The notes under the pieces: generated by a model | The model's database searches: none | What the model saw: only the letters and a program-made list of their open reading frames with translations | What the model was told of the DNA's origin: nothing | DNA from: Halocafeteria seosinensis | Lineage: Eukaryota > Sar > Bigyra > Bicosoecida | Assembly: GCA_001687465.1 (NCBI GenBank) | Contig: LVLI01000287.1 | Span: 1-47,063 of the forward strand | Reading direction: 5' to 3' | Length of the DNA: 47,063 bases | Shown: in pieces, positions 6,041-46,893 of the stretch | Numbering within the stretch: position 1 is the first letter of the stretch | Layout: each line of letters starts with the position of its first letter | Translations under genes and position numbers: made by a program

Positions 6041-7982
6041 ATGGAGAGTGGAATGGGTAGCTCGGGGCCTCATCGGGAACATTTCCGAGGCCATGGACGC
6101 TTATTTCGTTGGGATCCCCAGCGTAATCACTGGAGTATATTAGGCTCAGGCGCTGTTCTCGTAACCGAGAACCCCTCCAATGGGCACTGTAAACTCCTCA
6201 TTCGGAAGACGAAAAAGGGCAAAGAGATCCTCATGTATCATCCGATTGATCCTCAATGCCGTCTGGTATGTTCTATCCTTCTAATGCGCTTTTCCCCGTG
6301 GATAAGGCTTACAAATGCATCCCTGTGACTTTAAAATGTTGATATGCAGGGCTCAACGCAAGAACCCCGTGAATGGACCTTCCAAGCCCCTCTGTACAAC
6401 CCAGAAGATGGGACAATATCCCAGGACCTACACATGTTTGGTCTTCGTCTGTCAAGTGCTGATGAAGCGCAAGACTTCCAACGACGGTATGATGAGGCTC
6501 GACAGCGTATGGAAGACATTGGAGGTAGCCAAGGGCAGTTCAAGCAGGCTGCTTCACCCACCCAAATGCCTCAAATCCCGGAAGAAGGGGATGAGGAAGA
6601 AGACCAGCACAGTCGGGAGTTCCAAAAATTCCTTGACTCTAACCAGTACACACTGGAAGGTGTTTTGAAATACGAAAAAGTGTTTGGTCACGGCTACGTT
6701 TCCACCGGGGGATACGAAACGACCAAGGCATTCCTCCCATTGATGAAGTTGCAGCGGGGAGAGCATGTGTTTGACTTGGGATGCGGCGTTGGCGGTGGAG
6801 ACTTTGAGATGGCTCGGAAATACAAAGGTTAGTCGTGATAGAAGCCGTGCTGCTTCACTAGAGCACTGGTGTACTAATGCTTGTTAATTTCAATCCACAG
6901 TGTCCGTTCTTGCGATTGACCTCTCTGCCAACATGTTAAGAGTTGCGGCCGACCGAGCACGAGAAGCCATGGCTGACGGGGAAGACATTGACGTAGAATT
7001 CAAAGAAATGGATGCAACAACAGCCCAATTTGGTGATGAGAGTTTTGACGTCATTTACTCTAGGGATACTATCTTGCACATTGAGGATAAGCACGATTTG
7101 TTCCGCAAGTGCTACCGCTGGTTGCGTCCTGGTGGACGAATCCTCATCAGTGACTACTGTCGAGGCGAAAACAGTGATGAAGAATTTCGCGAATATGTTA
7201 AGCAACGAGGATATCATCTTCTCACAGTGCCGCAATATGGAAAGGTATTGGCAGAATCTGGATTCCAGTACGTGGATGCGAGAAACGTCACCGATCTATT
7301 CACTGAGAGTTTGCGTAGGGAACTCAACAAAACCGAAAAACTGGAGGACCAGTACATAAGGTAAGATCACCGATTTCGATGTGCATAATGCTTCTTACTG
7401 ATGGGATAGTCTTTTATTTTTTTCCTCCGGTGACTTCGGTGAGGAAAGCTTCAAGAGCATCACTGACGGGTGGAAACGAAACCTCCAACGCTATGAAAAC
7501 ACACACACACATATGTGACAGACTGCGAAAAACGTTTCCAACAGTGGGGACTCTTCTTCGGATACAAGCTTCCTTCACCGAAAAAAACACATTGGGACAT
7601 CCCAAATTCCAAACTGCCAGGTAAACGGGAAACTGTCGGCCATCCAAACACTGGAAGATGGGTAAAATCTTATTTCTGCTGCAATGAGGAGATTCGGCGC
7701 CAGGCCATAGTACGAGGAGCAATCGCAGGCCTAGGAGTGCTCACACTAACTGTAAGCCTAATGAAGGACGAATCGGGTCAGAGTCTCAGAGGCGTGGAAT
7801 CTGTGGAGGGTTCAAACACTTAGGCCGCTCAATTACCAAATTCCCGGCCGGTGGGCTATCTGTCACATTTGTGTGTGTGTACCAAAGGTAAGAGTTTATT
7901 CACGGGCTCATCTGCTTCTTCTGGACCAAGCAGTGGTAGTCCACGTATGCCTCCTCGTGGCGGTGCCCGCCAGTACCGTTAG
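6041..7982 (+). CDS. RanBD-like/phosphoethanolamine N-methyltransferase fusion, copy 1, damaged last exon
   Basis: Exons 6041-6265, 6350-6827 and 6901-7360 join in phase (introns 84 and 73 bp). Residues 20-120 look like a RanBP1/EVH1-type PH-fold domain ([43 protein letters not shown]). The rest is a single-domain SAM-dependent PEAMT, which makes phosphocholine from phosphoethanolamine: [18 protein letters not shown], the SAM loop [30 protein letters not shown], and RGYHLL. The last exon is broken. Its acceptor reads CCTCCGG where copy 2 has CCTCCAG, a 23 bp insertion plus 9 bp duplication (7500-7531) shifts the frame, an 8 bp insertion lies near 7781, and a 39 bp element sits at 7841. Without splicing the protein ends QYIR at 7364; a cryptic AG near 7448 would keep frame but stop at 7518. 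Either way the conserved WGLFIGYK end and the C-terminal membrane segment are lost. Whether exons 1-3 give an active enzyme is unknown. Confidence 0.85.
7500..7522 (-). mobile_element. 23 bp copy of the TG-tailed mini-element
   Basis: The insertion is bounded by imperfect 9 bp repeats, CTATGAAAA (7491-7499) and CTGCGAAAA (7523-7531). Paralogous copy 2 has a single CTGTGAAAA here, from which each flank differs by one base. On the minus strand the element reads TCTGTCACATATG followed by TG repeats, the shared 3' end of the family. The total gain of 32 bp shifts the PEAMT reading frame. Confidence 0.8.
7841..7879 (+). mobile_element. 39 bp copy of the TG-tailed mini-element
   Basis: Flanked by perfect 7 bp repeats TACCAAA (7834-7840 and 7880-7886). 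It reads TTCCCGGCC, then GGTGGGCTATCTGTCACATT and TG repeats. Copy 2 lacks the element; it also lacks 9 bp (CCAAAGGTA) of the target, an in-frame difference that removes three codons. The insertion falls in the C-terminal coding part of the PEAMT last exon. Confidence 0.85.
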
Positions 7983-8026
7983 ACGCGTTTTGGCAAGTCA
8001 AGTTGGTTTGTTTCATGTCTAACTTG

Positions 8027-8325
8027 TACTTTAATACACAATAAGCACCAAAACACTAGATTTGACCAGCAGACATGTACAGTTGGATCTTCAAGCCTGA
8101 TTCACAAGGGGTGTGTGTGTGAAAATTAATTTTTTCTTTCATGGACCATGGTATTGTTCATTTCAACAAAAGGATTGACTACTTTAATATACAATAAGCA
8201 CCAAAACACTAGATTTGACCAGCAGACATGTAGTTGGATCTTCAAGCCTGATTCACAAGGGATGTGTGTGTATGGGGTCTTTCTTCCATGGACCATGGTA
8301 TTGTTCATTTCAACAAAAGTATTGT
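8027..8325 (+). repeat. Two tandem units of about 150 bp upstream of the LRR start
   Basis: Units 8027-8179 and 8180-8325 both run from TACTTTAATA through CACTAGATTTGACCAGCAG and GATTCACAAGGG to TTTCAACAAAAG. The partner copy has one unit (about 16544-16690). The duplication lies in the presumed promoter or leader of the truncated LRR copy and must have followed the larger duplication, or been lost from the other copy. Confidence 0.85.
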
Positions 8326-8354
8326 CGTCGCGTACATGAAGAGCAGAGTGAACA

Positions 8355-8480
8355 ATGAGTAGCGCTGTTAGTACCACCCAGCTGGGGGAGGAGTGGCTCA
8401 CTTTCTTGGCATGGTGGAGTGAGTTTTGTGAAGACGATGTTGCACAGATGTTGCAATCTGGTTTAGGAGCCGTATGCAAG
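8355..8480 (+). pseudogene. Truncated 5' end of the LRR gene (first 42 codons)
   Basis: ATG at 8355 begins MSSAVSTTQLGEEWLTFLAW and matches the N-terminus of the complete LRR protein at 16719 to ...GLGAVCK. After GCAAG (8480) the sequences differ completely and the frame soon ends (AARNETGLRFA, then stop). The junction leads into retroelement debris. Confidence 0.85.
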
Positions 8481-8596
8481 GCTGCTCGGAATGAAACTGG
8501 TCTTCGATTCGCTTGACGCATCCCAAGTCAGCTGCCAAGTGCGCCACCAGCACCGGCTGCGTCTGCATGGAAGTCGACTCACAAATGATAGTGGGT

Positions 8597-8717
8597 CACA
8601 TACGTGACAGATAGCCCACAGGCCGGGGAGTTGACCGCATCCTCTTAACGAGGAGCGGTATGCGCCCGCAACACTGGGTTTGCTCAAGAGGCATCGCGGT
8701 GCCGCCATGCCTGCGAC
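8597..8717 (-). mobile_element. Internally deleted, older copy of the TG-tailed mini-element
   Basis: On the minus strand this matches the 179 bp element at 32244 from its 5' start (GTCGCAGGCATGGC against GGCGCAGGCATGGC) through the hairpin CCTCGTTAAGAGG to TGTGGGCTATCTGTCAC. About 58 bp are missing internally, at a CAT microhomology. The TG tail is eroded and I see no convincing target duplication, so this is probably an old insertion. Sharing a 5' start with the 32244 copy suggests that the 179 bp form is close to full length. Confidence 0.7.
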
Positions 8718-9340
8718 AACTATGTCAGGATACCTACAACGCTCAGCCTGGGAAGAGACGGCCCTGTGTCCGCCACAGCGACGCTAGGACCGGTTGCAGC
8801 AGCGCAGTTAGGATTAAACGTTGGTCCAGACGAGCAGTTGTCGGCCATTGACATGCCGCCACCTGACGTGGGAAGGTGCCGCCCCAGGAGTTCCGTCCAC
8901 CTCTGTTTCGTCAACATGGCCCATGTTGTAGTACATCTCCTGCTCGAGGTCAAAGAAGATGCAGCTACCCAGGTCCTTTTGAAGCCACGAAACCGGTTCC
9001 CACGTCCGTGCTGACTTTGGGTAGCCCTTTGAGTGGACGACAATCCGCTTGTGGATCCTGAAGTCGATAAACCTCTCGACATAATCTACCGTGTGTGTAG
9101 CTCTAGGCGGCCAGTCTAGGCAAGAAAAACCATTTCCCATTCGGTTGTTTGACGCGGTCTTCGCCAAGTGGTCGGCAGTCGTGTTTGAAGCCTGCGTCAT
9201 GGTTGCGTATTAACCTATTCTCAGCGCTCCTCACCATTGGGAGGTTCGAAAAGTGGTCCGAGCCCTGTGGGATGAGCTTGTCCTTGAGACACTGGGCTTC
9301 GCCACTCATGTGTCTGTGTACATTAGAACGGTGTAACAAG
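8718..9340 (-). mobile_element. Decayed retroelement with chromodomain-like segment
   Basis: On the minus strand, 9083-8970 encodes a chromodomain-like stretch: YVERFIDFRIHKR, then KGYPKSARTWEPVSWL, matching the usual Y-V-E-x-I-L-D-x-R ... K-G-Y-x-x-x-x-x-T-W-E-P pattern. About 25 residues upstream is NTTADHLAKTA, like the last motif of an RNase H domain. Chromodomains of this kind usually end the integrase of Ty3/gypsy chromoviruses, but I see no integrase core, LTRs or reverse transcriptase here, and the surrounding frames are broken. I call it retroelement debris; the family is uncertain. Confidence 0.4.
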
Positions 9341-10241
9341 AAGATTTGCCTCCAATATCACATCAAACAAACCGAAAATTCTAAAACAAGAAAGGACAAA
9401 ACCAGGGGAGTCAATCCTTGGTAGGGTCCAAATTTTGTAGCGCATGGGCAAAATGGACGCAAAATTACCTGTGCATGACCTCCCTATTTGTGTGCATCCT
9501 CGAGTTTCTGTAGCATTGATATGAGTCGATGTTTATGACTTAGGATCATCATATGTACAGTATTGGCTGTTGAACTGGGAAGTCACGTCACATTTGTCTC
9601 AATTCATTTACTTGCTCCGCCCACAATACAAACAGAGGGAACGGACTGTATCAACCAATTGTTGCAAAGTGCTTATAAGGAAATGTCCCGTCAGCGAAGC
9701 GAGAAAATGTACGATTTGGCATTGAGAGTCAGGAAACGTGGCCATAGTTTTACCGAGAACGTGTTACGATACACAACCATGAAACCCTATTTTTGCTGGC
9801 CATGGCTAGGACTATGACCATGGGACACATACGAAACAAATTCACGAGAATTTCTTTGCCGACAACGACAACGGCGCGGGTAAACATGGTAACAACGAAG
9901 TCAGATTATGATTCTAATGATTCACGAATTGTGTTGGAATTTCGATTTATACGTACGTTTGCTCCGAAAGATTACCGATGGATCTTGGAATTTGCTCGTT
10001 GTCCATTGTTGGCACAATGCTTGCGCCCCTCGGGGACTGGGGACCGCTTGGAATAGGCCGAACAGAAAGAGTCCCATCTATTCGACGAGTAGTAAATGGG
10101 CAATCATTCTTGGAGTTGGTGAACCCCATCATGGAATGCTAAATGACATAGTTCAGCAAATGTTGCCGAAATACACCATTTCAAGCAAACCCAAACCATA
10201 AGCTAAGCCAAAGTGACAGTTCAGGAACGAGTTCAATGGTC
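9341..10241. other. Gene-poor stretch inside block X
   Basis: Only short ORFs without recognisable features. Ends at the stop codon of the large minus-strand gene. No repeat or RNA gene seen. Confidence 0.4.
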
Positions 10242-13200
10242 TCAGTCGTTCGTTGAACGAAGCCACTCTCGTACAACAGGTTCGGCAAGAAACCCGTCGT
10301 TTCTAGCGCCCAAGTATCTCCACTGTGAAACTACAGTTTTCTTCAATTCTTGCAGACCATTGGGGCGGAGACAAGGGCAAATGTCGTCCAACCACTGCGC
10401 AGTGAATGTATCAGACGACGTCGAACGTCTACTATTCCGTGGTAGAACCTGTCCATTGACGTTATGTTTCTCAAAGTAAGAATCAACTAGTATCTCCTCC
10501 TCACTCTCAAACCAGGAACGCAGAACCTCGGCTTGCTGCTTTCGAAGTTCCAGCTGGTTGTGAACTACCTGGGTATATGCTGGGCCTAAGAACGGTAACG
10601 TATTTATGTCTTGGCACAGCGTGTTGATGAGTTTTTTCGCTACCTCCACGACCAAATTATCTGTTGCTGCCACATAGCACATACAAAGTCCTACGTAACA
10701 GAAATGGAAGAAAGTTTTCTCGTCTTGTTCTCCACCGGCATCGTGCGCGGGGCGATACGCATGATATAACAAACAGAGTTTATCGATAGACGCACTGAAT
10801 TCTTCCGACGCAAGAAGAATAAGTTTGCTAAGTTGCACACACAAGACTCCCGTCGGTTGCTGGAGAGTTTGATTCGTGCGGATCGCGAGATCAAGTAGCT
10901 CGTAAGCTCCATTCATATCTCGATGGAACAGAATCTCAATCAAATGAGACAATTTATCGTCATAACGAGCCTTATACCGTATCAGCAATCTATCCGTAAT
11001 TATCGGAAACTGGATGAGGAAACGAGTAACAGCCTGTGTCAACCTCTTCCAACATACATGTCTCAAGATACCCATTGTTCCGACGGGATGAAGAAACGGA
11101 TGAATGCGTCTTGCCCAATCATTCCGAACAAGAAGTCCCATGCCCAGGCGTCCGTAACTTCCAAGATCCGACCTTAACTCCTTTATCAAAGTTTGTGTAG
11201 ATGAAAAACCGTGACTTGAATGGTCAAATCCCCCCATGAACAACTCAATGATCGATAATCGTTCGACAAAGAGAACAAATTTATCTTCGCCGTCGCATAG
11301 ATGTTGGATGACCGGCTGTAAAAGGCAACAACGACCACGCAAAGCGGTGAGCACCGCTGAATAGTTCGTACGCAGCCATGGGTCAGACCGATTCGAGTCT
11401 ATCTCGCGCTGCAAGACGGACAATGCGTCCGTGGAGGATGGAAACCATGCACGAAGGACTGATAGCATATTTGACATTTCATCAATGGATAAGACAGGAG
11501 TAAATACAGCATCATCGTCCCTGAAAGGAGCATCATTGAGGGATACCAGTAGCACACGTGCTTCTGAAGGAAGCCTTGCTGTCAATTTCGCTCGTGCCTC
11601 ATGAAATAGCATCTTCTGACACAGAAAAACGTACGCATGCGCTTCCTTATATTGTATCGCCAGGATATCATTTATCTCAGTTCGTTTGTTAACGTGTCGA
11701 ACAGTAACCTGAAGAAAATAGTCCGACAAAGTTCCTCGAATAGTCGTGTCTAGCGCTCGCATGACAGCTGTACGCAGTCCACAACGCATAACAATTCTTG
11801 ACAAGTGCATTTCACCGTATTTACACTGACGTTGTTGCATGCTCACAAGTCGATTCGAAAAGAGCTCGCATAACGTGCTCGTAACTGTCCTATCAACGTC
11901 AACACGATCTTGTCGGCCCAAGAGTTGCGCGGTCAGCGGCGTTTCGCCGCTGAGAAATCGGAAGATATCACCGATCATGTGATCCTCTACGACTGGCTTG
12001 TCCAAGTATTCAAACGTAGGAACGTTGGAAACCTGTACTTCGTCGCTCTGCATGCACTCTGCATTTCCCCCCTTTTTTACTCCTTGTGGAGTAAACGTCA
12101 CTTTATCCTCGTCAAAAACAATGGCAGTCGAGAGGGTATGAGAGTTGTTCAAGCTTGATAGAGGAAATATAAACAAAAGCATATTGGTAAAACCCAACAA
12201 GGCTTCGTACTGACTCTTAGCAAACACTGGATCATCTGTAAACACCATAACTGTTGTCTGAGGACTTCTATCAAGTTCGAGTGTCTCATACAACTCCTGA
12301 ATTCGCCGACATAGCGGAGCTCTTGTCGCACGATGTCTGCTCGAATGTGTCACTACCAGGCAGCATGGTAGTAGTCTTGCTGGAGACACCCCATCATCAA
12401 AAAAAAGACCAACATGAGTTTGATCAATCATATTCCACGTCTCATTCCATTGCATTTTATCAAGTAACGGCATAGAGACAGACGAACCAACTGCGAGAAT
12501 TCTATACCGCTCGGGTCCGCAAAAATGTCGGAGAGTTGCAAACATATGCCTCTCACCATAGAGGAGCAGTAAATCCCAAAACTCCCGATACTCCCAAGGG
12601 CGAAGGCTGGAGCGAATTGTTTTGGCTCGGATAAGTTTTTGTTCCACAAACAGACCCGAACAATGCGGTAACGTGATAGAAACACAACAATGTTCAAAAT
12701 TGATACCAAATTCACTCTCATCTACTTCCGCCTCCCCATTGTTCACACATTCCTCAATTAGGTTCCAAGACTCTCGATTCCGACGTACATCCATCGGTAT
12801 ACCAAATTTTAACCCCTCAATTCTCGGTATTACACTCATTTGTTGTATACTTTGCTCAGCTCGCAATGCTAAGAGCGATCTATTTTTCTCCTTTAGCTTT
12901 CTTAAAATGCGTTTGGCAACGTTTGAGTCAAAGACAGTCAACTCCTGTACCCATCTTGTACTCGGTCCACAAGAAATATCCTCCTCCTCAATTTTGACGG
13001 TGTTAACCACTGCCCTTAGCTCCGATACGTCACGCTGTTTCAACTGCGGGAACATGTTCGAAAGCGCTTCCTGTACCCACTCTTTCACCAACTCCTTCAA
13101 TTCCTCTGGATTTGCAGGGAACGGAAGCAACGATAGGTTATCCGCAACGCCTATACAAATTTCCGTCTTTTGCCCAGTTGACAACAGCTGTGGTATGTAC

Positions 13201-13934: not shown

Positions 13935-14535
13935 CGTGCTCTCGACTAGAGTACAAGTAGCACTGTTTTGGCTTGAAGTAATAAAGACTCTGTGTGACGA
14001 GAAATACCTCTGTATTTCGTAATATTCACGTTAGTTCAATACCTTGTACAGTATTGTAGTGTATGTTAAAATGACATAAGTATTCAATATATTACGCTTC
14101 AAGCACGGCCATCAATGCAACGATAGCCCTACAACACTGTATCCACCTTCCCCCCAAAGCCTTTTTGTTTGCTGTCCCTTACCGTCGGAAGTTACCGATG
14201 CCACAACATGAAGATGCTGGACCGGTTCCGGGTAGGGTTCACCCCTCACACAGCGTACACGTCTTCCGGTAAGAGCAATACCAATACACACATACATATG
14301 GTTGCCAACGACGACGCGGTTATCACTACGATGGATTCCATCGGATGGAAGCACGAATTATAATTCGAGTACGTTATATCCGAGGGACAAATATGTAGCA
14401 ACTCTTGTTTCTTTTTTTCTTTTTTTTGGCGCAAGAATATCGACTGTAGAAACCGCGAAATGTCAGGGAGACTATCGTACATTCGTGGCGGACTGATGCT
14501 GATCGTTGTGCCCACTGTAGACAACCTAATATGTA
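13935..14535. other. Upstream region of the 1230-aa gene, no gene seen
   Basis: Must contain the promoter of the minus-strand gene ending at 10242. Otherwise only short ORFs. A T-rich tract near 14405-14428 is the one visible compositional feature. Confidence 0.4.
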
Positions 14536-14544
14536 ACATAGTAG

Positions 14545-14665
14545 CACACACACACATATGTGACAGATAGCCCACTGGCATACACCAGCTGCGAAGCGGA
14601 CGACGCTAGATAAGTAAGCGCTGAGCAGCCTGGCAGCCCTTGGCCATGGACATATGTGTGTATTC
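14545..14665 (-). mobile_element. TG-tailed mini-element with a different 5' body (121 bp)
   Basis: On the minus strand the last 30 bases are the family 3' end (GTGGGCTATCTGTCACATAT and TG repeats), but the upstream 90 bp (including GCTGCTCAGCGCTTACTTAT) do not match the 179 bp element. Possible 9 bp flanks are ACATAGTAG (14536-14544) and AACTAGTAG (14666-14674), identical at 7 of 9 positions. This may be a second subfamily sharing only the tail. Confidence 0.55.
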
Positions 14666-14674
14666 AACTAGTAG

Positions 14675-15267
14675 ACAACTACCTGCGGTCTATCAACCTG
14701 GAAACTCATTGTTGTAACGACGCACATTGGGACGCACATCCGGATCGTGCCGGTTTTGACTGGGACCTATTGATGAAGCAACCGTTCTACGACACCCGCG
14801 TGAGCCACAGCTGAACTACAGTACTGCGTGGTTTATTGTTTTGGTTTGGGAGACATCTTGACTTCCTCATCCTTGCGAAACACTTTGGCCACACACACAA
14901 ATGTGACAGATAGCCCACCGGCCGGGAAGTTGACCACTTTGGCCTGCGTTGGCTACGGAGCGCACCTCTGCCGCCTCATGCTTAGTAGTATTTATGGCCT
15001 ACCGGCTAAGTGGAAATGTAGTCATGCTTTGCTGTTAGCGAACCGTAGCTTAAATATGAGTAGCACGGACTTATACGTCCTTGCACTAGCGATGATGAAA
15101 TCAACTGCGTTGGCCTGCGGTCTACATTTGCGTCCAGCTAGTGCAACAAGCAACAGGCGTGGCTGCGTCATACTGTGGAAGCCTTGTCCAAAACACGCAT
15201 AGCAACCCGATTCATACTTTCTCGAATTGTTCTAGCTCAAAACGTGACCGATGAGGTTTTGGCAAGA
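14675..15267 (+). other. Unassigned stretch with protein-like ORF pieces and a mini-element insertion
   Basis: The plus frame from 14675 reads DNYLRSINLETHCCNDAHWD and on to a stop near 14814; another open frame runs 14828-15202. The latter is interrupted by the 45 bp mini-element plus 9 bp duplication, which adds exactly 54 bp and so keeps it open. Neither piece is recognisable; both may be remains of an older mobile element. Confidence 0.3.
14890..14934 (-). mobile_element. 45 bp copy of the TG-tailed mini-element with perfect 9 bp target duplication
   Basis: The flanks are identical: CACTTTGGC at 14881-14889 and 14935-14943. On the minus strand the element reads GTCAACTTCCCGGCC, then GGTGGGCTATCTGTCACATT and TG repeats. 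The 5' end lies six bases upstream of that of the 39 bp copy and seven bases short of that of the 52 bp copy, consistent with variable 5' truncation. Confidence 0.9.
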
Positions 15268-16497
15268 ACTGGAAGGTGTTTTGAAATACGAAAAACTGTT
15301 TGGCTATGTTTCCACCGGGGATACGAAACGACCAAGGCATTCCTCCCATTGATGAAGTTGCAACGAGGGGCATGTGTTTGACTTGGGATGCGGCGTTGGC
15401 GGTGGAGACTTTGAAATGGCTCGGAAATACAAAGTTTAGTCGTAATAGAAAGTTGTGCTATTTCACTGGAGCACTGATGTACTACAATGTTTGTTGATTT
15501 CAATCCACAGTGTCCGTTCTTGCGATTGACCTCTCTGCCAACACGTTAAAGGTTGCGGCCAGCCGAGCACGAGAAGCCATGGCTGACGGGGAAGACATTG
15601 ACGTAGAATTCAAAGAAATGGATGCAACAACAACCCAATTTGGTGATGAGAGTTTTGACGTCATTTACTCTAGGGATACTATCTTGCACATTGAGGATAA
15701 GCACGATTTGTTCCGCAAGTGCTACCGCTGGTTGCGTCCTGGTGGACGAATCCTCATCAGTGACTACTGTCGAGGCGAAAACAGTGATGAAGAATTTCGC
15801 GAATATGTTAAGCAACGAGGATATCATCTTCTCACAGTGCCGCAATATGGAAAGGTATTGGCAGAATCTGGATTCCAGTACGTGGATGCGAGAAACGTCA
15901 CCGATCTATTCACTGAGAGTTTGCGTCGGGAACTCAACAAAACCGAACAACTGAAGGACCAGTACATAAGGTAAGATCACCGATTTCGATGTGCATAATG
16001 CTTCTTACTAATGGGATAATCGTTTATTTTTTTCCTCCAGTGACTTCGGTGAGGAAGGCTTCAAGAGCATCACTGACGGGTGGAAACGAAAGCTCCAACG
16101 CTGTGAAAAACATTTCCAACAGTGGGGACTCTTCATCGGATACAAACCTCCTTTACCGAAAGAAACACATTGGGACATCCCAGATTCCAAACTGCCAGGT
16201 AAACGGGAAACTGTCGACCATCCAAACGCTGGAAGACCAGTAAAATCTTATTTCTGCTGCAACGAGGAGATTCGACGCCAGGCCATAGTAGGAGGAGCAA
16301 TCGCAGGCCTTGGAGTGCTCACACTAACTGTAAGCCTAATGAAGGACGAATCGGGTCAGAGGCGTGGAATCTGTGGAGGGTTCAAACACTTAGGCCGCTC
16401 AATTAAGAGCTTATTCACGGGCTCATCTGCCCCTTCTGGACCAAGCAATGGTAGTCCACGTATGCCTCCTCGTGGCGGTACCCGTCAGTACCGTTAG
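15268..16497 (+). pseudogene. PEAMT copy 2: 5' exon decayed, 3' exons intact
   Basis: The first exon-like piece (15268-15434) starts abruptly inside the PEAMT domain and contains several small deletions (GGTCACGGCTACG to GGCTATG, loss of one G in the CCGGGGG run, a 2 bp loss near 15365). Its splice donor has changed from AAAGGTTAG to AAAGTTTAG. In contrast the next exon (15511-15970) and the last exon (16041-16497) are open, correctly phased and have normal splice sites. The last exon gives the expected C-terminus: [29 protein letters not shown], then a tail with a hydrophobic segment ([20 protein letters not shown]) that could be a membrane anchor. Without start codon and RanBD part this copy cannot make a full enzyme, unless the intact exons are joined to another promoter or to copy 1 transcripts. 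Confidence 0.85.
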
Positions 16498-16844
16498 ACG
16501 CGTTTTGGCAAGTCAAGTTGGTTTGTTTCATGTCTAAACTACTTTAATACACAATAAGCACCAAAACACTAGATTTGACCAGCAGACATGTAGTTGGATC
16601 TTCAAGCCTGATTCACAAGGGGTGTGTGTGTGAAAATTAATTTTTTCTTTCATGGACCATGGTATTGTTCATTTCAACAAAAGGATTGTCGTCGAGTACA
16701 TGAAGAGCAGAGTGAACAATGAGTAACGCTGTTAGTACCACCCAGCTGGGGGAGGAGTGGCTCACTTTCTTGGCATGGTGGAGTGAGTTTTGTGAAGACG
16801 ATGTTGCACAGATGTTGCAATCTGGTTTAGGAGCCGTATGCAAG
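15268..16844 (+). repeat. Large direct repeat, copy B' (partner 6652-8480)
   Basis: Same segment as 6652-8480 but without the mini-element insertions and with a single spacer unit. It ends at GTATGCAAG inside codon 42 of the LRR gene, after which the complete LRR gene continues. Together with copy B it brackets the 6.8 kb block 8481-15267. Confidence 0.9.
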
Positions 16845-18293: not shown

Positions 18294-18959
18294 GAATCTA
18301 CGAGTTGACAGTCTCGGTAATGGAATCAAAGCATCATGTATCTTCTTTAGAATAATGTCCGCCAAAGATCCTCGACGAAGTCTGTTGGAATACTGAGTGT
18401 GACGGCAGTGACATTCCTAGCAGTACTCCATCAACTGGTAATAAACTACTACCTAGTAATCATGCCACAATCGCAGACCCCTTTCCGACGATAGTTTCCG
18501 TCTTCCCCAGTCAAACCATCAGTTAGCGGTGTTTTTGTAGGAACATCGGAAATTTAGCCACCACGCATCACTTTTTGACAGTTAGTTGTCCATAAGTGGG
18601 ACCCTTACTTAGTGGGTCCGGTTGCCAACTTGCCATTTGCAGCAAATGGTTTGCTGATTCCTGAACTTCACGGCATCCTGCTTCACAAAGTGCAAATGTC
18701 TTCGCTTGGGCACGTTAACGACAATTCCCCCACGATTGCCAACATGGCATACTTGTATCCCTCAATCTATCCAAGAGGAAGCGATTGTGTCTTACCACTT
18801 CACTAGTGTGATAGGAAAGTAGTTTGATCCCTTACTGGGAGGCTGGTGTTAACGGCCTTCCATTTGCGACCGCCCACGCTACATGGTTAACCGCCAGTTC
18901 CAAAGCAACCCTTTAAGATAATCTCGCAGGTTGCTTACGTCGCCACCAACTAGTTGAAC
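18294..18959. other. Intergenic, no gene seen
   Basis: Separates the LRR gene from the coiled-coil gene. A short ORF at 18612-18806 has no supporting feature. Confidence 0.4.
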
Positions 18960-31787: not shown

Positions 31788-32213
31788 AAATTGTTTTGCG
31801 GAACCAAGGGTGTTGATAAACCCTTAGAGGAAGCAGGCTGGGTTGTTACATCTCTCGATAATGATCCAAAAACTAATCCAACAATTATGGAAGACATTCT
31901 CAAACTTGACTACAGAAGTCGCTGGCAACCAAGAGAATTTGAGGTAGTTTGGGCATCTCCGCCTTGTACAGAATACAGTCAGATGAGAAACATTTCTATC
32001 GCTCATGGCGTCCGATCGGAATCTAGAGTTTGCCAACAGTATCGTCGCAAGAACGTTAGACTTGGGACACTACCTTCGGCCCAAGTTCTGGTTCTTAGAA
32101 AACCCTGACACTGATTACTTAAATTTCAAGAGCTGGTGAAGGATATTCCTTTTGTTGGAGCGTTGTAAATATGGCTATCCTTATCGGAAAAGAACTAGGT
32201 TCTGGAAGGGTTA
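31788..32213 (+). pseudogene. Decayed DNA cytosine-C5 methyltransferase fragment
   Basis: It starts with KLFCGTKGVDKPLEEAGWVV, the SAM-binding motif I (F-C-G-T-x-G/S) of the family, then SLDNDPKTNPTIMEDILKLD and the catalytic loop WASPPCTEYSQ with the nucleophilic Cys. After about 32010 the reading continues in another frame (RNLEFANSIVARTLDL, LRPKFWFLENPDTDYLNFKS), meets TGA, and resumes with ERCKYGYPYRKRTRFWKG. There is no start codon (TAA lies immediately upstream). So at least one frameshift and one nonsense mutation are present. The F-W-F-L-E-N-P-D-T and K-Y-G-Y-P-Y-R-K-R-T phrases suggest the compact methyltransferases of phages and large DNA viruses of algae rather than eukaryotic DNMT1/3; this family assignment is from memory. 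Confidence 0.8.
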
Positions 32214-32243
32214 GACCTGAAGATGTGCGAATACGACTGACTA

Positions 32244-32422
32244 GGCGCAGGCATGGCTCCTCCTCCGATGCCTCCTGAACAAAACCAGTGTTGTGTTCCC
32301 TCACGGCGCATGTCAGCAAGACTGCAGGAACAGCGGGCTCGTCGCTGCNTAACATACCGCTCCTCATTAAGAGGATGTGGTCAACTCCTCGGCCGGTGGG
32401 CTATCTGTCACATATGTGTGTG
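32244..32422 (+). mobile_element. 179 bp, possibly full-length TG-tailed mini-element with perfect 10 bp target duplication
   Basis: Flanked by CGACTGACTA at 32234-32243 and 32423-32432, identical over 10 bp. It starts GGCGCAGGCATGGCTCC, contains a small hairpin (CCTCATTAAGAGG) and the palindrome CGGCCG, and ends GGTGGGCTATCTGTCACATA plus TG repeats. A frame from the ATG at 32253 stays open to a TGA in the right flank (58 codons); one base (32348) is N. The sequence has no clear tRNA-type A and B boxes; GGTCAACTCC is the only B-box-like string. It lies just downstream of the decayed methyltransferase. Confidence 0.85.
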
Positions 32423-32432
32423 CGACTGACTA

Positions 32433-33014
32433 TACCTCGGGAAAAACCTTCCGAAGAAGACACCTAGCAGTAGTTACTGGAACTCGAAACGATGATTCGA
32501 TGGGGTATCCATGGGTATCGCCCTTTCACAACCACTTTGAATCAACGGCATTCAACCTCTCCCGAGCTACCTATGTTAAGAGTACACACACACAGCACGC
32601 GCGCGCGCGCGTGTGTGTGTGTGTGTGTGTACGTATGTATGTAGCCTTGACACCACAGTCACTGAACTTCTCGCTGAAGTACTTCCAGTGGCCACGTACT
32701 TCCACTCAGCCAACTTCACAAACGTATCCCCTTTGTATTTGTCCTCTAGCATTACGCGTGTCTAGGTACAAGCGTATGAGCCTTCTTATTGCTATTCTCT
32801 TTTACTAGATGAACTAGATATTGTGGTAGGTGTAGTGTATAGCGTTTGTGGTGGGCTCTGTCGCCACACTGGATTTGAAGTACAACTTCACGATCATTCA
32901 GTGTTGTTATGCGCATTGCTAGACGATGCTATAATGTCAATACGTGAATAATTTGTAATTTTTTGTTCCTATTGACTTCTTCTTGGCGTCAAAGGGTCAA
33001 ATTACTGATATACG
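32433..33014. other. Intergenic with microsatellite, no gene seen
   Basis: Apart from the quasi-palindrome at 32583-32644 only short ORFs are present. The distal part must hold the promoter of the RadA gene. Confidence 0.4.
32583..32644. repeat. Alternating purine-pyrimidine quasi-palindrome, (AC)n-(GC)n-(GT)n
   Basis: The tract goes from TACACACACACA through eight or so CG/GC steps into a (GT) run and ACGTATGTATG. The two arms are complementary, so it can form a hairpin or cruciform, and alternating purine-pyrimidine DNA of this length is prone to Z-form. Confidence 0.85.
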
Positions 33015-35324: not shown

Positions 35325-35335
35325 TCAGCGGGACG

Positions 35336-38300: not shown

Positions 38301-41300
38301 GAGTTTAAAAGCCCACACAAGGTTACTATAACCTCTACCTGGTGAGCCGCTATAGCACTTTCGAGAACTTCATTCAAAATCCGGATAGCCTCTTTCACCC
38401 CGTACGGACCGTCGGGGCATAATCGTCGAAAAATATAAGACAGTGAAAAAGTGTGACTCCTATTTCTATCCTGAGACAAGGGGTCACCGCGAAGCTGCAC
38501 ACCTCGAAGACCCACCCTTCGCCTACCATCAGTCTCTTCATCCGATTCGTAGTCGGAGTCGAACGCACTCTCTTCCGCTGGAATTCGAGAAAACCGGTTT
38601 CTTCCAGAAGGGCTCTGTAAACCTTCATCCAATTTGACGAACGTGTCACCCTCTGTGTTGGCCTCTCTCATTTGCGAGCGGAAATGTAATCTTCTCAACC
38701 TTCTATCTATTTGATGTTCAAACCTATGTCGCGCATCTTCAGACTCATCGATAGCTCTACGCTCCGATCCTCTGGTAGAAGCAGAGATCGTGGTATTGCG
38801 TAGCATCGGCGCACAGTCTGAGACGGAGAAAATTGCCTTCTCGTCACAGGAAATCTCAGAGCCTTCGAAAGAGTCTAAAGAGTCTTCTTCACGTTTATCA
38901 GCTTGCTCGTATTGTTCTCGGTTGAAGAGCTGTTCCATCAGCAGCCAAGGTTGACATGAACCCAACAGCTCCCTAGAATTTCGGCGATGACTAAACGCGA
39001 AGGTGCTCAAGCTCTTTGCACTATGCAGAGAATGCGATGTCATCCCAAATGCACTACACAGACGGAAATTCCTTTCATTAACAAGTTCTGTGTAGTCTAT
39101 TGTGCCCGCTCCTACGGTAGCAAGTAAATGTCGCAATCGATATGCTTGATGCCATCCCTCGGACTCCGTTGCCGGGAGTTGTACTGTCTCCTTCAGGTCC
39201 ACTACTGGTCGTTGTTGCTCTCTTGAAGTATGCTTGGCATTGTCCTGTTCGGAGCAATCAATCAAGTTTACCCGTGTACGATGCAATCGTGAAGGAACGA
39301 AATAACCACATAAGTCCTTTACCGGAGCTAAACCGACAGCCTCCGCAACATCCGCAGTATTTTGAACGTTGTATTCAGTACCTACCAACGCTAGCAGCCT
39401 TCTTAGCGCTTTGTACTGGCCCGTTCTTCTCCAGTTTGTGTATCCCATAGGCCCTCGTCCTCGACTACCCGAAAGAAGCCCAGTTACCAGTAAGGACAAA
39501 CTCGTTCCCTTTGAGTCATTACAGCATACAACACGCAATATCTTGCGAATAACAGCGTCTCTATCAGAAGAATCTAATGCACAAAGTATGGATATACATA
39601 TGTTTAGCTCATGGATCCTGGCAGTGCGAACCAGGTCAGAAGAAGGACGAAAAAGCAGCTCTTCCTGGTCCTCAATGGGTCGTCCATAAGAAAGCGATTC
39701 GTAAAAGCACGAGGGTAACCCGCACATTTCACCAGGTGGTCTGGGGTGTTGCTTTGTGTGCTCCGATATGTTCCTGCGATTATTATAAGATAGAGGAGGG
39801 AATTCTTCGAAGATTCCGGGGACTAAAACATTTGCTTCTATTACTTTCCGATGGTCACGATCCGCCAGGGGCGCAGCACTAGCATGCGCTCCGGTTGGTC
39901 CAGGACGAATGAATGCCGGATGTCTGAATAGTCCAGCCAGATTAAGTGCACCCTCTTTTGAGCTACATTGAATAGGCTTGTGATACTCGGAGGCGACTTC
40001 CCATGAAGAAGAAACGTCGCTTGCCGCAATCTCTGCTGAACACCCGCTTATTTCTGCAACGATATTGAGTGCTTCGCGCTGAGAATCCGCGACGTCCCGA
40101 CCATCATCCGCCAGTTGTGTTACCATTGTATTGATCAATGCATGGAGATCATCGCCATACGAAGGAGTGAATTGGTCCAAGAACTGATCGATCATTGATG
40201 GCTCAGCGCTCTCTCCTTCCTCGCAGCCCGAGAACCTTGGCCGTAAGCGAAGCATTGATACTAGTCTGCTCAGCAGGTTTTCCTGCATCAGTAGCCCTCG
40301 CTGATTCTCTTGTATGATTCGTCGTATATATAATTCATCGTTTCCTCCTTTTTTCTTTCGATCTTCTTGATACCTGTCGCGTGTATTTGCTACGGGTGTT
40401 TTTTGGGTATTCTTACTGTCCTTAGACGACTTCCTTTTGCCACTAAGTCCAACGTAGCGTTCATTGTTTAATGCTTTCCAGGCGCATGGAGGTATGGCCC
40501 CTTTCTGCTCTTCGAGTTGCTCTCGTCTCCAACGATTAAGAACATCCAGTGCAGGTAGTGGATCTGTGAAATTCAACATGTTGATACAATGCTTGCAAAC
40601 CAATACCTGATACACGTGCCGAACAGAGGCCACCTACCGTCGATATCATGGACCTCAGGTTCAAATATCAACAGTGCCAGGACTCTACAAATCTTCGCCA
40701 AGCGCCTTGGCTCCAATGACTCGATAATTTGCCGAAACTCATCCAACTCCAAGAAACGAGGAACACCATGAGGTCCGCATGCAGCAACTGCTTCTTCCAA
40801 ACAAATAACAGCTGAGTCGAAGACGTCTGGGTACCTCAGGAAACTAACTATCAAAGACAGTATCTTATGATGGTACATCCATCGGTGATTAATTATTTTC
40901 CTCAAGAATGAGAGCTCCCTGAGCAAAGTAAGCAAATCTGTGACATAAAAAACATTGATTCAATCGGACCCCGCTATCCATCTACCGCACATATAAATCA
41001 CTACGCACCACTGGCCGTGCCACACAGCAATATCACCTTGTCCGGCTCAAGCTGTGTAACATTCTGTAGAATCCAATCGATCTTGTTCAACGATTCCAAT
41101 ATGAAGGCGGGACCTCTCAAGGAAGAAAAATGGGTGGTGAGGTTGTTGACGTCTTCGTCCGTCATTTTCTGGGCAAAAACTTTTTGAAGTGCCTGACCGA
41201 ATTAAGGGAAAACTCTTCATACTGTTATAAAGTAAACAGAATATGCGAATAGTGACTTACTAAAGCCGCTTTCCGTATTCCTTTCTGGATATTAAGGTCG

Positions 41301-41887
41301 GGAGACTTCACGAACTCCTCCAATACCCTCAGTGATGAAAAGCAGATGTTCACAACTTGTTCGATGCGTTCCAAAGATAACTTTTGTGGGAGAGGTGAAT
41401 CTTCTAGATCATCCATATCTTCCTCATCATCACCACCAGCATCCTCTTCTGTCGTAGCCGTATCTCCTGTCCGCTGCTCGGTCTCTTGTGTTGTATCGCC
41501 ACCTTGAGCACGTGCGGTGCGACGTTGACGGGTCTGTCTGCCACCGTTGTGTCTCCTTCGTTGACCCACACGCCGTCTTCTGCCAGTGTTCCCCGGTCGT
41601 TCTCTGGCTTCTTCCATCACTGTATCATATTGACGCTGTTGGGTACTATCAATGGCTTGTACAAGATGCTTGCGATGCCTTTCTCTGAACATCGGGCAAT
41701 TGGGGTCAGCGAATGACGCGTGCGGTGGCAATGCTGCAGGTGTCCGCGGAGGACACCCTCCACAGCACCTTTGATACCAGACTAAATTGACGACATTTAC
41801 CACTGGGGATATATTACGCGTAGTATCGCGCTGTGCCGTCGTAACTGGTGGTCTTGGGTGGCTGGAATTGCTTTCTCGAGAAGCCAT
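35336..41887 (-). CDS. TRPC4AP: TRPC4AP (TRUSS) homologue, very large, at least six exons
   Basis: Exons (minus) 41887-41261, 41192-41009, 40937-40638, 40563-38163, 37981-37888 and about 37720-35336 give about 1787 residues, roughly twice human TRPC4AP (797). Recognisable blocks are in order: LLTLLRELSFLRKIINHRWM, FDSAVICLEEAVAACG, FCRVLA-like KICRVLALLIFEPE, DPLPALDVLNRWRREQ with IPPCAWKALNNERYVG, CTCDPESSNKIQVLRLLHS, FWLSSCIESLLRNSPVSVRK, FQSAFDLLAETVKMNP, VDSTVFLRSILLTM, INQENICCLNTAILHFIIAH and FCNLLEFWLQYYAARWKDRP. Animal TRPC4AP is a CUL4-DDB1 ubiquitin ligase receptor. The extra length is acidic or Ser/Arg-rich inserts (for example the Arg/Asp-rich N-terminus and 39.9-38.4 kb). Intron 4 (181 bp) and the exon 5-6 boundary (37,675-37,888) are not firmly resolved. 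Confidence 0.85.
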
Positions 41888-42633
41888 TTTTTTCCCTCTC
41901 TTATCGCCCCTGTAGCGTCCGATTCAGGGTCCTCAATTTCGTGGATGTCTCTTATAGAGAAATCTGTGGAAATTAAACAACCGTAAGTGTCGGTATAAAC
42001 GTGCATACAGCATTTGTTTCAAAAAAGCCATCCGGTGTTCCCACCCATCCACCCACACACACACACACAGAAACACGTTATTTGAGCAAATCCACAACAA
42101 TACGTACATAAATGGTACCACAATCTCCCATACAGAAATCGAGCCGTACCATCCCAATGGAGATATGAGCTTGCAAGGATGCATGCAGCTCGATAAACGA
42201 CCGAATTTGTCCCGGTTTGTACCTAGAAGAAATGTTTGACAGCTTACAAGTCCTTCAGGACGACTCCTTAGTCACTCCTAGCTGTAGGAAGTCTTCGTGA
42301 CACAAGTTGGTGTATCAGAATCTGATACTGTTGAGTTTGTGAAATTGTTTGTGGTTGAGTAATGTATTAGCCCACGGTAACTGAGTAGTTACTTACTGGC
42401 CACGCAGGCGTAAATTTGCTATCATCCCTGACACATGTGATACGGGCAAAATGCTCGATACACTCACTGGGAGTTATGGAAGGACTGGAGGGTTATCGTT
42501 AAACTGGTATTGTGGACGCGCTTTTCCCAAGTACTCAACAATCCAATTTGCTCCAATAGACGAGCAATTTTCACAACAGAAGAAAACTCCTAACATTTTC
42601 GCTGAGCATTGTGAACAACTCTTAGAAGCCAGC
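41888..42633. other. Intergenic with (CA)n microsatellite, no gene seen
   Basis: Upstream of the TRPC4AP start. A pure CA run lies at about 42053-42069; it lacks the TGACAGATAGCC core, so it is not counted as a mini-element. A short plus-strand ORF (42451-42654) has no supporting feature. Confidence 0.4.
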
Positions 42634-43917
42634 TTAAAAGCTCCCCAAGCTTAAGAAGCCGCCATGTCCTGGACACCACGTATAGCAGTTCGGCACTTGC
42701 TTATATTTCTCTATCCACATTGTATACGCAACACTGTCCAGCATAGTCATCATTTGGAAAGTCAAACGATCATGAGAAGAGTAAGCTTCAGGGTTCCACG
42801 ACCCATAGAATGGAGAATCCCCTTGAGCACATGACGGTACAATTTTGCGCACCTCCTCCTTTGTGAAACTCTTGTCCTTGGAAATAACTGTAAGAACGGT
42901 GGTAGCCTTTTTCATGGACGGATTCAATTGCACCCGCGTCTGCCAATCTGTAAAAACATTGCATCCTCTTATTGGAATAAAGCTGACGTGGTAACCTTCC
43001 CGAATCGCGGGTAGTATAAACTCGTACGTCACGCTGCTTGAGCTGGATGGGGCGTCACCAATGAAAATGACATGGCGAGGAAGTTTCTTTCGAAAGAGAC
43101 TTTCAAACTGGTCGCTACTACGAGGTGGCACCCAGCTAATAAAGATGGTGTCAGGAGTTCCGTCATAATCCTCGAAGAGACGGTTTTTCATGTCGTCGAT
43201 GCTATAAGGAACATCGGCTCCCATATTCCAGTTTACTCGAGTATCATCAACGCCTCTCCCATCTTGAGAGTGTTGGCTAGCGGAGTAAGGCGGATTGCTT
43301 GCGGTAAATCTCAGTTTCTTATACTTTTCACTGCCATAACGCGCACTGTATCGCCGTAAAGCTAAGGTGAAGAGACCCTGCCCGGCCCCCATTTCTTCGA
43401 CATCAGTTGCTCCAAGCGACAGGAGCACACGACACAATACTTGCATAACCTCTTGAGTAGGTAGTTCGTATACACCACACCCGATCTCACTCATTGCTAT
43501 CCTCCAGTAGACACGCTGGTATTTTGACATGAGCTCAGGCAGTGAAGTAGAACAAAGGTCATCCACAACTGCTTCCCAATTTTGTTCCCGAGCATTTGCC
43601 AACAAGGGATACTTCGCTTGCGTAACCTCTCGATCATTTAAATGCACGATAGGCACATCAATCTTCCCACTTTGGTACAAAGAATCGTATTCTTGTATGG
43701 ACCCCTTCAGACGGCTTAAAAAGTTACGGATCTTTCCAAGTGTCTCATGGCAACGCAGTTGGTAGAGCTCCAAAGGAATCCGTACACGGACGCTATCCAC
43801 GGCGGTCTCCTGATAGAGTGTCCCCTTGGGATTAATTCGAGCTGCAGTAGCAGCTTCTGCCTCGGTCAATCCGGCTTCACTAGCCACTGTGCTGGTGCTG
43901 TATTCAATTGTAGACAT
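42634..43917 (-). CDS. Putative SAM-dependent methyltransferase-like protein (427 aa)
   Basis: Intronless. Central part: SKYQRVYWRIAMSEIGCGVY, then LLSLGATDVEEMGAGQGLFT, a Rossmann motif I (E-x-G-A-G-x-G) typical of class I SAM enzymes, then FTASNPPYSAS, PDTIFISWVPPRSSDQFESL and HVIFIGDAPSSSSSVTYEF. The pattern motif I, then W-P-P or W-V-P-P, then a I-x-I-G-E/D strand occurs in uncharacterised eukaryotic and giant-virus proteins; substrate unknown. The N-P-P-Y string recalls the N6-adenine catalytic motif but stands too close to motif I context to be sure of that use. The N-terminal 100 residues are helical. It is oriented head-to-tail with the TRPC4AP gene. Confidence 0.65.
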   Translation of the reverse strand: MSTIEYSTSTVASEAGLTEAEAATAARINPKGTLYQETAVDSVRVRIPLELYQLRCHETLGKIRNFLSRLKGSIQEYDSLYQSGKIDVPIVHLNDREVTQAKYPLLANAREQNWEAVVDDLCSTSLPELMSKYQRVYWRIAMSEIGCGVYELPTQEVMQVLCRVLLSLGATDVEEMGAGQGLFTLALRRYSARYGSEKYKKLRFTASNPPYSASQHSQDGRGVDDTRVNWNMGADVPYSIDDMKNRLFEDYDGTPDTIFISWVPPRSSDQFESLFRKKLPRHVIFIGDAPSSSSSVTYEFILPAIREGYHVSFIPIRGCNVFTDWQTRVQLNPSMKKATTVLTVISKDKSFTKEEVRKIVPSCAQGDSPFYGSWNPEAYSSHDRLTFQMMTMLDSVAYTMWIEKYKQVPNCYTWCPGHGGFLSLGSF

Positions 43918-44423
43918 TGCGAGTTCAACTCACGCGCCACACTACTGCACAGCACCCTTGCACACTGTTCCTCTATCTCCACTTCTACAAGCCGTGCCCA
44001 TCTGTGTAGAAAGTAGAATCCGCTCTCGCGTACTAGGACAAATCCGCTTTGGGCTCCCTGCTTAAAGCCACAATCGTTCTTTGCCGCAACTTGAAGTTGG
44101 AAGCTCTCTCTGGTTGGCTTCGATATAGTCACCAAACCCTGTGTGTAGTATAACCTTAATAGATGACAAAAAATAATTCTATCAATCGTTTGGGATGAAC
44201 CAACCCACTTGCATCTTATTTCTCTTGTAATTTCACTACCAGTGCCATCACAGTATCGGGGTTTCCGCACTGAAGTGTACTGTAGGTTGTACAATTGTAC
44301 CAAGCAATTATATAAGTGTTTCTTCCCCGCGGCGGTACAGAACAGGGTCAAGCACTGGAGCAATCACACATCCACCAGCTTCCTCGAGGTAAGGAAGAGC
44401 ACCAATAGCGCCGCTAATCGGGA
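43918..44423 (-). other. Upstream region with a possible orphan exon next to the LINE tail
   Basis: On the minus strand 44423-44316 reads ISGAIGALPYLEEAGGCV then IAPVLDPVLYRRGEETLI and TAA. It looks protein-like and directly abuts the LINE poly(A) end, so it could be the 3' part of a gene split by the LINE. On the plus strand a good donor (GAGGTAAGG) lies at 44388. Neither reading is established. The remainder should hold the promoter of the methyltransferase-like gene. Confidence 0.25.
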
Positions 44424-46893
44424 TTTTTTTTTTTTTTTTTCGCTGCATCATGTACCATGGTAGTGTGTATTGTTGATGATCTTGGAATATTACTGATCAA
44501 AGGTAGAAGCATAAACAGCTACACCACCTCTCTCTCTCTGGGTAAGACTAACTGAAGCCATCTGCAGAGTAAGTTGACATTGGACCGCATAAGCCGACAA
44601 GACAACCCTTCACGAAGACATTCCACATGCATGTACCATTTCTTAGGGTGAGATACATGAAGAGAAGCGGGCCGATGTTTAAGCTGAGATAGGAAATCTA
44701 CCGCATCCTCTCCTATACCACCATATGATTGAAACGCAAAGGGGGTTAACTTCTTTCCAAGTTCTTGACAGACTGCCCCATATTTATGAACTTTCATCCG
44801 TTCCACCACTCGAGTAGCTGCGGCAGTACGAAGGTTTTGTTGGATACTCACCGCAGAAGGTTGAGTGACAGATACGTCCACTATAACAGGACAATCTGAC
44901 TGGATTACTTCAAGATCTCCCCTATGTCGACTCCCGGTTTGAATCAGCGGTTCCTTCTCCACAGGAAAACCCCATGAAACCAAACCCCCAATAAGGGTAT
45001 CCCGGAGCTGATTATGCCGTTCGACTCGCGCCCTTTGGATGTCAGCATAAGCACACTTAAAAGCATGAGAACCAACACCGTCAATCAAATGATCACAGAG
45101 AGGGCACAAAACCGGAATTGGCTGTCTCGTAAGCGGCAATCCAAGTCTCAATCTCACCCCAATTCTCCATTGCAAGTCCGAAAATTTCTTAGCAGAAGAA
45201 GTAGGCGAAGCCCGAAGCCAATCATGCGCCCCAACCTGTTGTACTGCCTTCACTCTCGCTTTTACATACTCCGGTTGCTCTCGAAGAAACCGATTCAATG
45301 ATCCTCGAACAGTTTGGTCCACCATAGATTTCTGCTGTTTACGGGTAGGAGCTTTTTCCCTCGGATCATCTTTTGAAATATCCACATCCTGTCTCCGAAG
45401 ATCCTGAACAAGCGAACTTCGCTCTTCCCCCTCAAAACCAACCCCTGATTCCCATACCGATGCCACATAGGCAGGGGGAGATGTCATAGACACCTTCGTG
45501 AGTCCTAATCCACCGTAACGAAGTGGTAACCGCCACTGAAGGCAGCTGCCAAACACCTGATCATCCTGGAAATAATCCGTCCCAAGCAGCGAGCGAGCAA
45601 CTTCCAACACCGAATTATCAAATTCCACAGTTGCAGCTTTCCTATGCCATGGCGGAACTGTACGTAGCAGATGATTCAGCGCCGGAATTATCGATTCCCT
45701 GAGGAGGATATACCGGCACTGTACAGGAACTGCAGTTTCAGTCCTCGCCATGATCAACTTTCGCAACTCTTGAACCTTAGACAGACACCACCTTTCTTCA
45801 AAATCAGGGACACCAATCGGAGTACCTAAGACCACAATACCATCCCTCTTCCTGAGGAACTGACTCCCCCACCGGAAGCAAGAGCTCCGATTTGGAAGTG
45901 TTTACTCTTAGTCCACTAAATTCAGCCAAGTCGCTGAATCTACGGGCAAAAGCCACCAAATCTTCTGCGGGGCCTGCCGCCGACACATCATCCAAGTAAG
46001 CATTGACTTGCACAGCTGGAAACTCCTGCCCAAGCTGTTCCAACACACCCTGAATACCAGCGGCGAATAACGCTGGCCCAAGGGGATCTCCCTGTCGGAC
46101 TCCTTCTTTCGAGAAGGCCAAAAAATCTTCGTGGAAATACAAAGGAGAAGCATACCAATAAGCCCATTCAAAGTAAGGCAACATTCCGGGCAGCCTCTCC
46201 TTAATCACTTGCCTGACCTTCTCCCTGCTGATAGAGTTAAATGCATTTTGGATATCCAGAGTGAGGACCGCGTGTCCCTTGTGGAATTGCTTGCGGATAG
46301 CATGCGCAATTTTTTCCGTCGCTCCGGGCTCCTTTACACCTAATTGTAAGGGTTTAAGGAAATCGGGTAGCTCTCTCTTCTGGTGTTGTAGAAGGACTTT
46401 TGCCGCCAAACGGGAAATCGTTTCCCCTATAGCAATCGGTCTCACTTTCCACCGAGTCTTAACCAACGGAACAAGGCGGGCGGCTGTAAGTCTCTTCCAA
46501 TTTGGCTCCTTGCCATTCAGGATCCTATTGACAATGGTGGAGAGGGCCTGTATACCTTCCTCAGTAGCAGACAATTTTTTCAAATCTTGGACTGTAATTC
46601 CCGAGCACACACACAAATGTGACAGATAGCCCACCGGCCGGGAAGTTGACCACATCCTCCCGAGGGGCCGGGAGCAGTGTCATGATGCATCTCAAAGAGC
46701 TCTTTTTTGATCCGAGAGAGGGGAACATCCCACTCATCCATAGTCACATCCTCTGATTCCCCAAAAGGTTCCATGGGTTCGGGATTCATATCTCGTAGCT
46801 GTTTCCTGACAGACGGCTTATCCGGTGCCATTCCCCACGAGGTAAGCTCATTCGACGCCTTACGAATAGAGCCACCCTCAAGTTCAGCCTGAG
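44424..46893 (-). mobile_element. Non-LTR retrotransposon with restriction-like endonuclease, disabled
   Basis: Minus strand, 3' end at a run of 17 A (plus T, 44424-44440). The ORF reads TAPGPSGITVQDLKKL (after removal of an insert), LTLDIQNAFNSISREKV, GVRQGDPLGPALFAAG and NAYLDDVSAAG, the RT palm with the catalytic Y-L-D-D. C-terminal parts: CPLCDHLIDGVGSHAFKC (zinc knuckle) followed by RHRGDLEVI and PVIVDVSVTQ, a PD-(D/E)XK-type restriction-like endonuclease, so this is an early-branching, RLE-bearing LINE (R2/CRE/NeSL grade). Two defects break it: a 52 bp mini-element plus 7 bp duplication at 46599-46664 and a 1-base frame shift near 45830 between QEEG and GIVVLG. The 5' end is cut where the inverted copy begins (46894). 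No target duplication could be identified. Confidence 0.9.
46606..46657 (-). mobile_element. 52 bp copy of the TG-tailed mini-element inside the LINE RT ORF
   Basis: Flanks TCCCGAG at 46599-46605 and 46658-46664. On the minus strand it reads GGATGTGGTCAACTTCCC, GGCCGGTGGGCTATCTGTC, ACATT and TG repeats. Removing the element and one flank restores DTAPGPSGITVQDL, a conserved RT segment, so the LINE was intact here before the insertion. Confidence 0.9.

Follow-up and report, generated by a model that had tools for sequence, protein, structure and literature searches.

Very short TG-tailed insertions in a Halocafeteria seosinensis contig are very probably 5′-truncated copies of one LINE family

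Contig LVLI01000287.1 of the bicosoecid Halocafeteria seosinensis (assembly GCA_001687465.1) carries seven short loci ending in TG repeats, which an earlier note on this DNA had described as a family of ultra-short retro-insertions. The window analyzed is this whole contig (47,063 nucleotides, C204 below), and the assembly comprises 30.59 Mb in 605 contigs. The inserts are very probably (about 0.92 by our estimate) 5′-truncated copies of one family of long interspersed nuclear elements (LINEs, non-long terminal repeat [non-LTR] retrotransposons), made by target-primed reverse transcription (TPRT). The TPRT reading of the earlier note is supported by a constant TG-tailed 3′ end, by 5′ ends that are nested, by target duplications far in excess of the control, by an empty site, and by longer copies sharing the 3′ end. 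The short inserts are the short end of the truncation range of one LINE family, not a separate element class; their mechanism is an ordinary one, their shortness being the main unusual feature.

Core word in the window and the genome

Six exact copies of the core word GTGGGCTATCTGTCAC were present in the window (mean 0.30, maximum 1 in 100 shuffled windows), and beyond these the window held no match at up to three mismatches. The claim of seven loci with a common 3′ end was thus borne out for the six exact cores, and the locus at 7500 has only TCTGTCACATATG(TG)n. The genome-wide search for the core with a TG tail that the earlier note had proposed returned 415 exact cores on many contigs (217 on the plus and 198 on the minus strand) versus 0 for the reversed control. 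Two neighboring copies with the same 3′ flank (L078/L020, C263:1-4634) represent a local tandem duplication, which inflates copy counts. The shorter word TGTCACATWTGTGTGTG occurred 422 times (control 0); among the first 100 places listed, 67 adjoin an exact core and 33 do not, so that copies truncated within the core, or with an altered core, are common.

The loci sample consisted of 86 core matches with at most two mismatches. The bases following TGTCACA were TTTG in 54 and TATG in 18 of them, and the TG tail had 4–6 units in 54/86, the longest run being 23 units.

Target duplications and 5′ ends

Three of the 86 matches were removed, and the 5′ end was placed in the remaining 83. Thirteen of these extend up to the limit of the retrieved sequence, leaving 70 copies with a visible 5′ end. 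Exact repeats were sought between the sequence after the tail and that before the 5′ end at fixed offsets, repeats of only T and G being ignored by design. As a control, 3′ flanks were dealt to the wrong copies (1381 mismatched flank pairs). Exact duplications of at least 7 bp were found in 26/70 copies versus 25/1381 mismatched pairs (Fisher p ~4e-23), and of at least 8 bp in 20/70 versus 5/1381 (p ~1e-23), the p values being rough because the same flanks were reused many times. An earlier, cruder placing of the 5′ ends had given 23/70 copies versus 5/412 control pairs. No two of the 26 copies with duplications share a target sequence; G was the second base of the duplicated site in 14 of the 26, a feature noticed among many positions inspected.

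The 5′ ends are nested, lying from 18 to more than 1000 nt before the core end, and the 3′ end is constant in the retrieved copies, as the earlier note had claimed. The tabulation of duplications and 5′ breakpoints that it called for therefore came out on the side of TPRT. In a sample of 35 copies, which leans toward short ones, the median distance from the 5′ end to the core end was 66 nt; this distance was no more than 60 nt in 15 copies and no more than 130 nt in 29, and it exceeded 500 nt in one. Independently of that sample, exact 16-mers starting 16, 51, 111, and 781 nt before the core end (coordinates of the C117 copy) were counted 415, 262, 177, and 20 times in the genome, a drop that also reflects mutation, subfamily differences, and contig ends within the repeat and hence gives a trend, not lengths. 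With word counts falling from 415 to 20 over approximately 780 nt, truncation is therefore severe.

Inserts in the window

7500..7526, minus strand: 27-bp insert, the shortest copy in the window; TCTGTCACATATG(TG)n with four non-family bases before it; duplication GAAAA at 7495-7499 and 7527-7531; delimited by filled versus empty site
7841..7879, plus strand: 39-bp truncated LINE 3′ end; duplication TACCAAA at 7834-7840 and 7880-7886
8481..9312, mixed strands: single rearranged LINE copy of ~830 bp; RNase H piece 8481-8601 on the plus strand, remainder 8604-9312 inverted on the minus strand
14545..14579, minus strand: copy of ~35 bp, GCCAGTGGGCTATCTGTCACATATG(TG)n; no exact duplication of at least 4 bp found
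14890..14934, minus strand: 45-bp copy; duplication CACTTTGGC at 14881-14889 and 14935-14943
32244..32422, plus strand: 179-bp copy, extending into the last, C-terminal part of the LINE coding sequence; duplication CGACTGACTA at 32234-32243 and 32423-32432
46606..46657, minus strand: 52-bp copy within the reverse transcriptase (RT) reading frame of another LINE; duplication TCCCGAG at 46599-46605 and 46658-46664

The four exact flanking repeats reported before (TACCAAA, CACTTTGGC, CGACTGACTA, and TCCCGAG) are present, and the duplications were also recovered independently in the genome-wide analysis. The lengths of 39, 45, 179, and 52 bp stand, and the others had to be revised. The 7500 insert, given as 23 bp, is 27 bp with a 5-bp duplication GAAAA when compared with its empty site, a paralogue at 16087-16150 without the insert. 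The copy at 14545, given as 121 bp, shrinks to ~35 bp: when a 146-base query was searched against the genome, only the last ~35 (14545-14579) recurred in 38 of the 39 other hits, the remaining one starting 13 bases earlier at 85% identity. The second supposed 121-bp copy, at 8597, is the 3′ end of the rearranged ~830-bp copy, which lies in its inverted minus-strand part (core at 8604-8619). Because the tail is within the inverted part, twin priming was not retained as an explanation for this copy.

The 7841 insert is likewise absent from a paralogue (16380-16425), which also lacks a further 9 bp beside the site. Both paralogous sites belong to a segmental duplication (6652-8480 and 15268-16844), the 7500 and 7841 inserts being in the first copy only. 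The rearranged copy at 8481-9312 starts exactly at the end of similarity to the leucine-rich repeat gene paralogue.

The element hosting the 46606 insert (44441-46895, minus strand) is a different LINE with a restriction-like endonuclease (RLE) and a poly(A) 3′ end (RVT_1, 1.7e-18), broken in two frames. A 170-bp inverted repeat (44729-44898 and 46894-47063, 98% complementary) lies at the contig end; it is possibly a second, inverted copy of this LINE or an assembly fold-back.

The partner LINE

Several copies are similar over more than 1 kb upstream of the short inserts, and longer copies sharing the 3′ end extend into sequence that codes for RNase H and endonuclease. In four of the five copies inspected, the reading frame adjoining the 3′ end closes with a sequence like ...RRMSARLQEQRARRCLTRAHTAPR, and its stop lies 43–45 nt before the core end. 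This leaves a 3′ untranslated region (UTR) of 42 nt followed by the (TG)n tail. A hairpin was predicted for the 3′ UTR in two copies, and 11/200 and 12/200 shuffles folded as well or better.

The C166 copy (L029/L076), apart from small indels, covers the stretch between the last part of the endonuclease region and the TG tail, including RNase H and a chromodomain. Its first 381 bases match C78 (L068) at 95%, and C78 continues upstream into the CCHC/RLE region and the RT. C206 (L043), 98–99% identical to C78 in the overlap, supplies a C2H2-like finger at the N-terminus, recognized by eye. The RT is linked to the TG tail via these overlapping copies, not within one continuous copy. The partner found in this way is a LINE predicted to encode RT, CCHC/RLE, archaeal-type RNase H, and chromodomain, followed by the 42-nt 3′ UTR and (TG)n. 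The search for a full-length partner with the same 3′ end, suggested in the earlier note, has thus recovered the element in pieces assembled from broken copies, with no intact copy seen. Two other candidates were rejected. The RT element of the window itself (44441-46895) was ruled out by its poly(A) 3′ end, and on C13, which has both an RT hit and the core, the core belongs to a separate copy of ~114 nt.

Relatives and protein domains

The RT-RLE piece was searched against about 5.8 billion proteins (7999 candidates scored) and gave four hits. Two of the proteins, P0001 (969 aa) and P0002 (938 aa), are 49–50% identical to the piece over 85–86% and contain, in one frame, part of the RT, CCHC/RLE, RNase H, chromodomain, and a similar C-terminus. 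The domain order is therefore not an artefact of rearranged genome copies. A stretch of C139 matches P0002 from residue 722 to the last residue, 938. Among viral contigs, 34 pattern matches were obtained, none of them a relative.

The RT was recognized by RVT_1 in L046 (8.3e-15), and a profile of the piece with P0001, P0002, and the C215 element had R2 proteins as its best hits among solved structures (2.8e-8). The CCHC/RLE region has the conserved columns C, H, C, R-H, R-D, E, D, D, and K. An RLE profile of five sequences, two of them from other elements of the same genome, matched the RLE part of R2 proteins (3.6e-4) and no Pfam family. For the RNase H, RVT_3 scored above the cut-off (4.1e-9) and RNase_H below it. 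The residues D, E, D, R, and D occur in this order in copies and relatives, which is the archaeal-type pattern in the account given in the part of PMC4640811 used here.

Chromodomain family PF00385 was matched by all four cut-out domains (two relatives and two copies; best 1.8e-7), and P0001 and P0002 as whole proteins score under the Pfam cut-off. The solved chromodomains matched were those of MPP8, CDYL, SUV39H1, and HP1 (1e-7 to 5e-6). The chromodomain region reads VDD in L010, L017, L029, L048, L060-L063, and L073, and VYE in the two relatives. This position, with Y in the relatives and D in the genome copies, presumably lies near the first cage residue of known chromodomains.

Alternative explanations

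Several observations weigh against truncated copies of one LINE made by TPRT. No continuous copy from the finger or N-terminus to the tail was present among the copies seen, and reading frames are broken in the copies translated. The RT-RLE piece as a single sequence did not retrieve R2 among solved structures, where R2 was found by profiles only. The assembly breaks inside the repeat, many contigs starting or ending within it, and long copies are probably under-represented for this reason. Contigs C102, C119, C147, and others start at the same repeat coordinate, with words at 26 and 86 from the contig start, a pattern resembling an assembly break at the repeat. Finally, 19 of the 70 copies have no exact duplication of at least 4 bp.

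These 19 copies, with that at 14545 among them, would fit an origin of the short pieces in double-strand break repair that took up LINE RNA or cDNA as patches, in place of endonuclease-started TPRT. Such pieces would come from anywhere in the element, an argument tempered by the 3′-end search through which the copies were identified. The constant junction between 3′ end and TG tail, together with the excess of duplications, favors TPRT for a large part of the copies at least, and we regard break-repair capture as very unlikely. Similarly unlikely is a short interspersed nuclear element (SINE) family that depends on the enzymes of another LINE for its mobilization and has a 5′ end of its own of small-RNA origin. 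One query position is the starting point of many matches to the 179-bp window copy, as a SINE would predict, but this common start is the 5′ end of the query itself, and most such copies remain similar further upstream. The 5′ ends are spread and nested, the upstream part encodes LINE protein, Rfam gave no match for 32200-32480, and no tRNA was found in the window. The SINE reading was dropped. The (TG)n tails, and the local tandem arrangement with a common 3′ flank on C263, could be explained by a satellite or microsatellite-associated family spreading through unequal crossing-over or gene conversion. Against it, copies are present on both strands and many contigs, their flanks are unrelated, and they show duplications and an empty site; we give this explanation almost no weight.

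Comparison with known elements

LINE ends that are truncated, carry a microsatellite tail, and lie between target duplications are already known from RTE elements. In the portion of PMC2887409 drawn on here, RTE elements of Lepidoptera have truncated ends and a short simple-repeat 3′ UTR, and had been taken for microsatellite families. The present LINE resembles them in its short simple-repeat 3′ UTR, its many truncated 3′ ends, and its target duplications (6–12 bp in RTE). It differs in having an RLE followed by RNase H and chromodomain, whereas the RTE endonuclease is of the apurinic (exonuclease/endonuclease/phosphatase) type (same portion).

Utopia of oomycetes is, according to the passages of PMC4640811 consulted, an RLE LINE with an archaeal-type RNase H upstream of the RT and the U2 small nuclear RNA (snRNA) gene as its target. 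The RLE, the zinc fingers, and the archaeal-type RNase H with R replacing H are shared with the present LINE, in which RNase H and chromodomain instead follow the RLE. Unlike the U2 snRNA targeting of Utopia, the 26 duplicated sites here are all different, no U2-directed search having been made. Another RLE LINE of this genome (L042, C215:11311-14678) has one open frame across the whole retrieved stretch and an RNase H-like domain upstream of the RT, like Utopia as characterized in that source. The same source, as far as consulted, reports Togen of fish as (TG)n-specific, inserting into TG microsatellites. The TG association is common to both, but the duplicated targets of the present element are not TG runs, runs of only T and G having been excluded by design. 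With R2 (solved structures 9nl2, 9nl3, 9dou, and 8gh6), the element shares profile similarity in RT and RLE; R2 inserts into ribosomal DNA, whereas the duplicated targets here are varied.

As of 2017, chromodomains had been shown only in LTR groups, according to the relevant part of PMC5348765. Chromoviruses, Chronos, and CoDi-I are there described as carrying a C-terminal chromodomain on the polyprotein, as here, and Chronos also has an archaeal-type RNase H; all are LTR elements with integrase, and the present element is a LINE with RLE. Searches of the open-licence PMC literature for RLE and other non-LTR elements with a chromodomain or an RNase H, covered largely by the starts of abstracts, did not yield an RLE LINE with both domains at the C-terminus.

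Proposed mechanism and implications

The RLE of the element would nick chromosomal DNA at many different sites, and the freed 3′ end would act as the primer from which the LINE RNA is copied, starting at its (TG)n tail. The RT would mostly halt within the first few hundred bases, perhaps through low processivity, a short-lived template, or early second-strand capture. The short cDNA would then be joined after a staggered second cut, giving a duplication of 5–12 bp. The RNase H and the chromodomain may also have a role in insertion, the chromodomain perhaps in targeting.

More speculatively, and with the odds rather against it, an RLE LINE lineage with RNase H and chromodomain behind the endonuclease may have dropped strict site choice and may pick chromatin by a histone-mark reader, with TPRT mostly aborting within a few hundred nucleotides and seeding TG microsatellites on inserts of ~25–200 bp. 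If this is true, a chromodomain-targeted RLE LINE would be the LINE counterpart of integrase-chromodomain targeting in chromoviruses. With an RLE LINE protein ending in RNase H and chromodomain, chromodomain capture would no longer be confined to LTR elements but would include LINEs, and such an element would make it possible to ask directly whether a chromatin reader can replace DNA-sequence specificity in elements with an RLE. Copies as short as these would be taken for microsatellites or small indels, with the risk of misleading marker design and the calling of indels.

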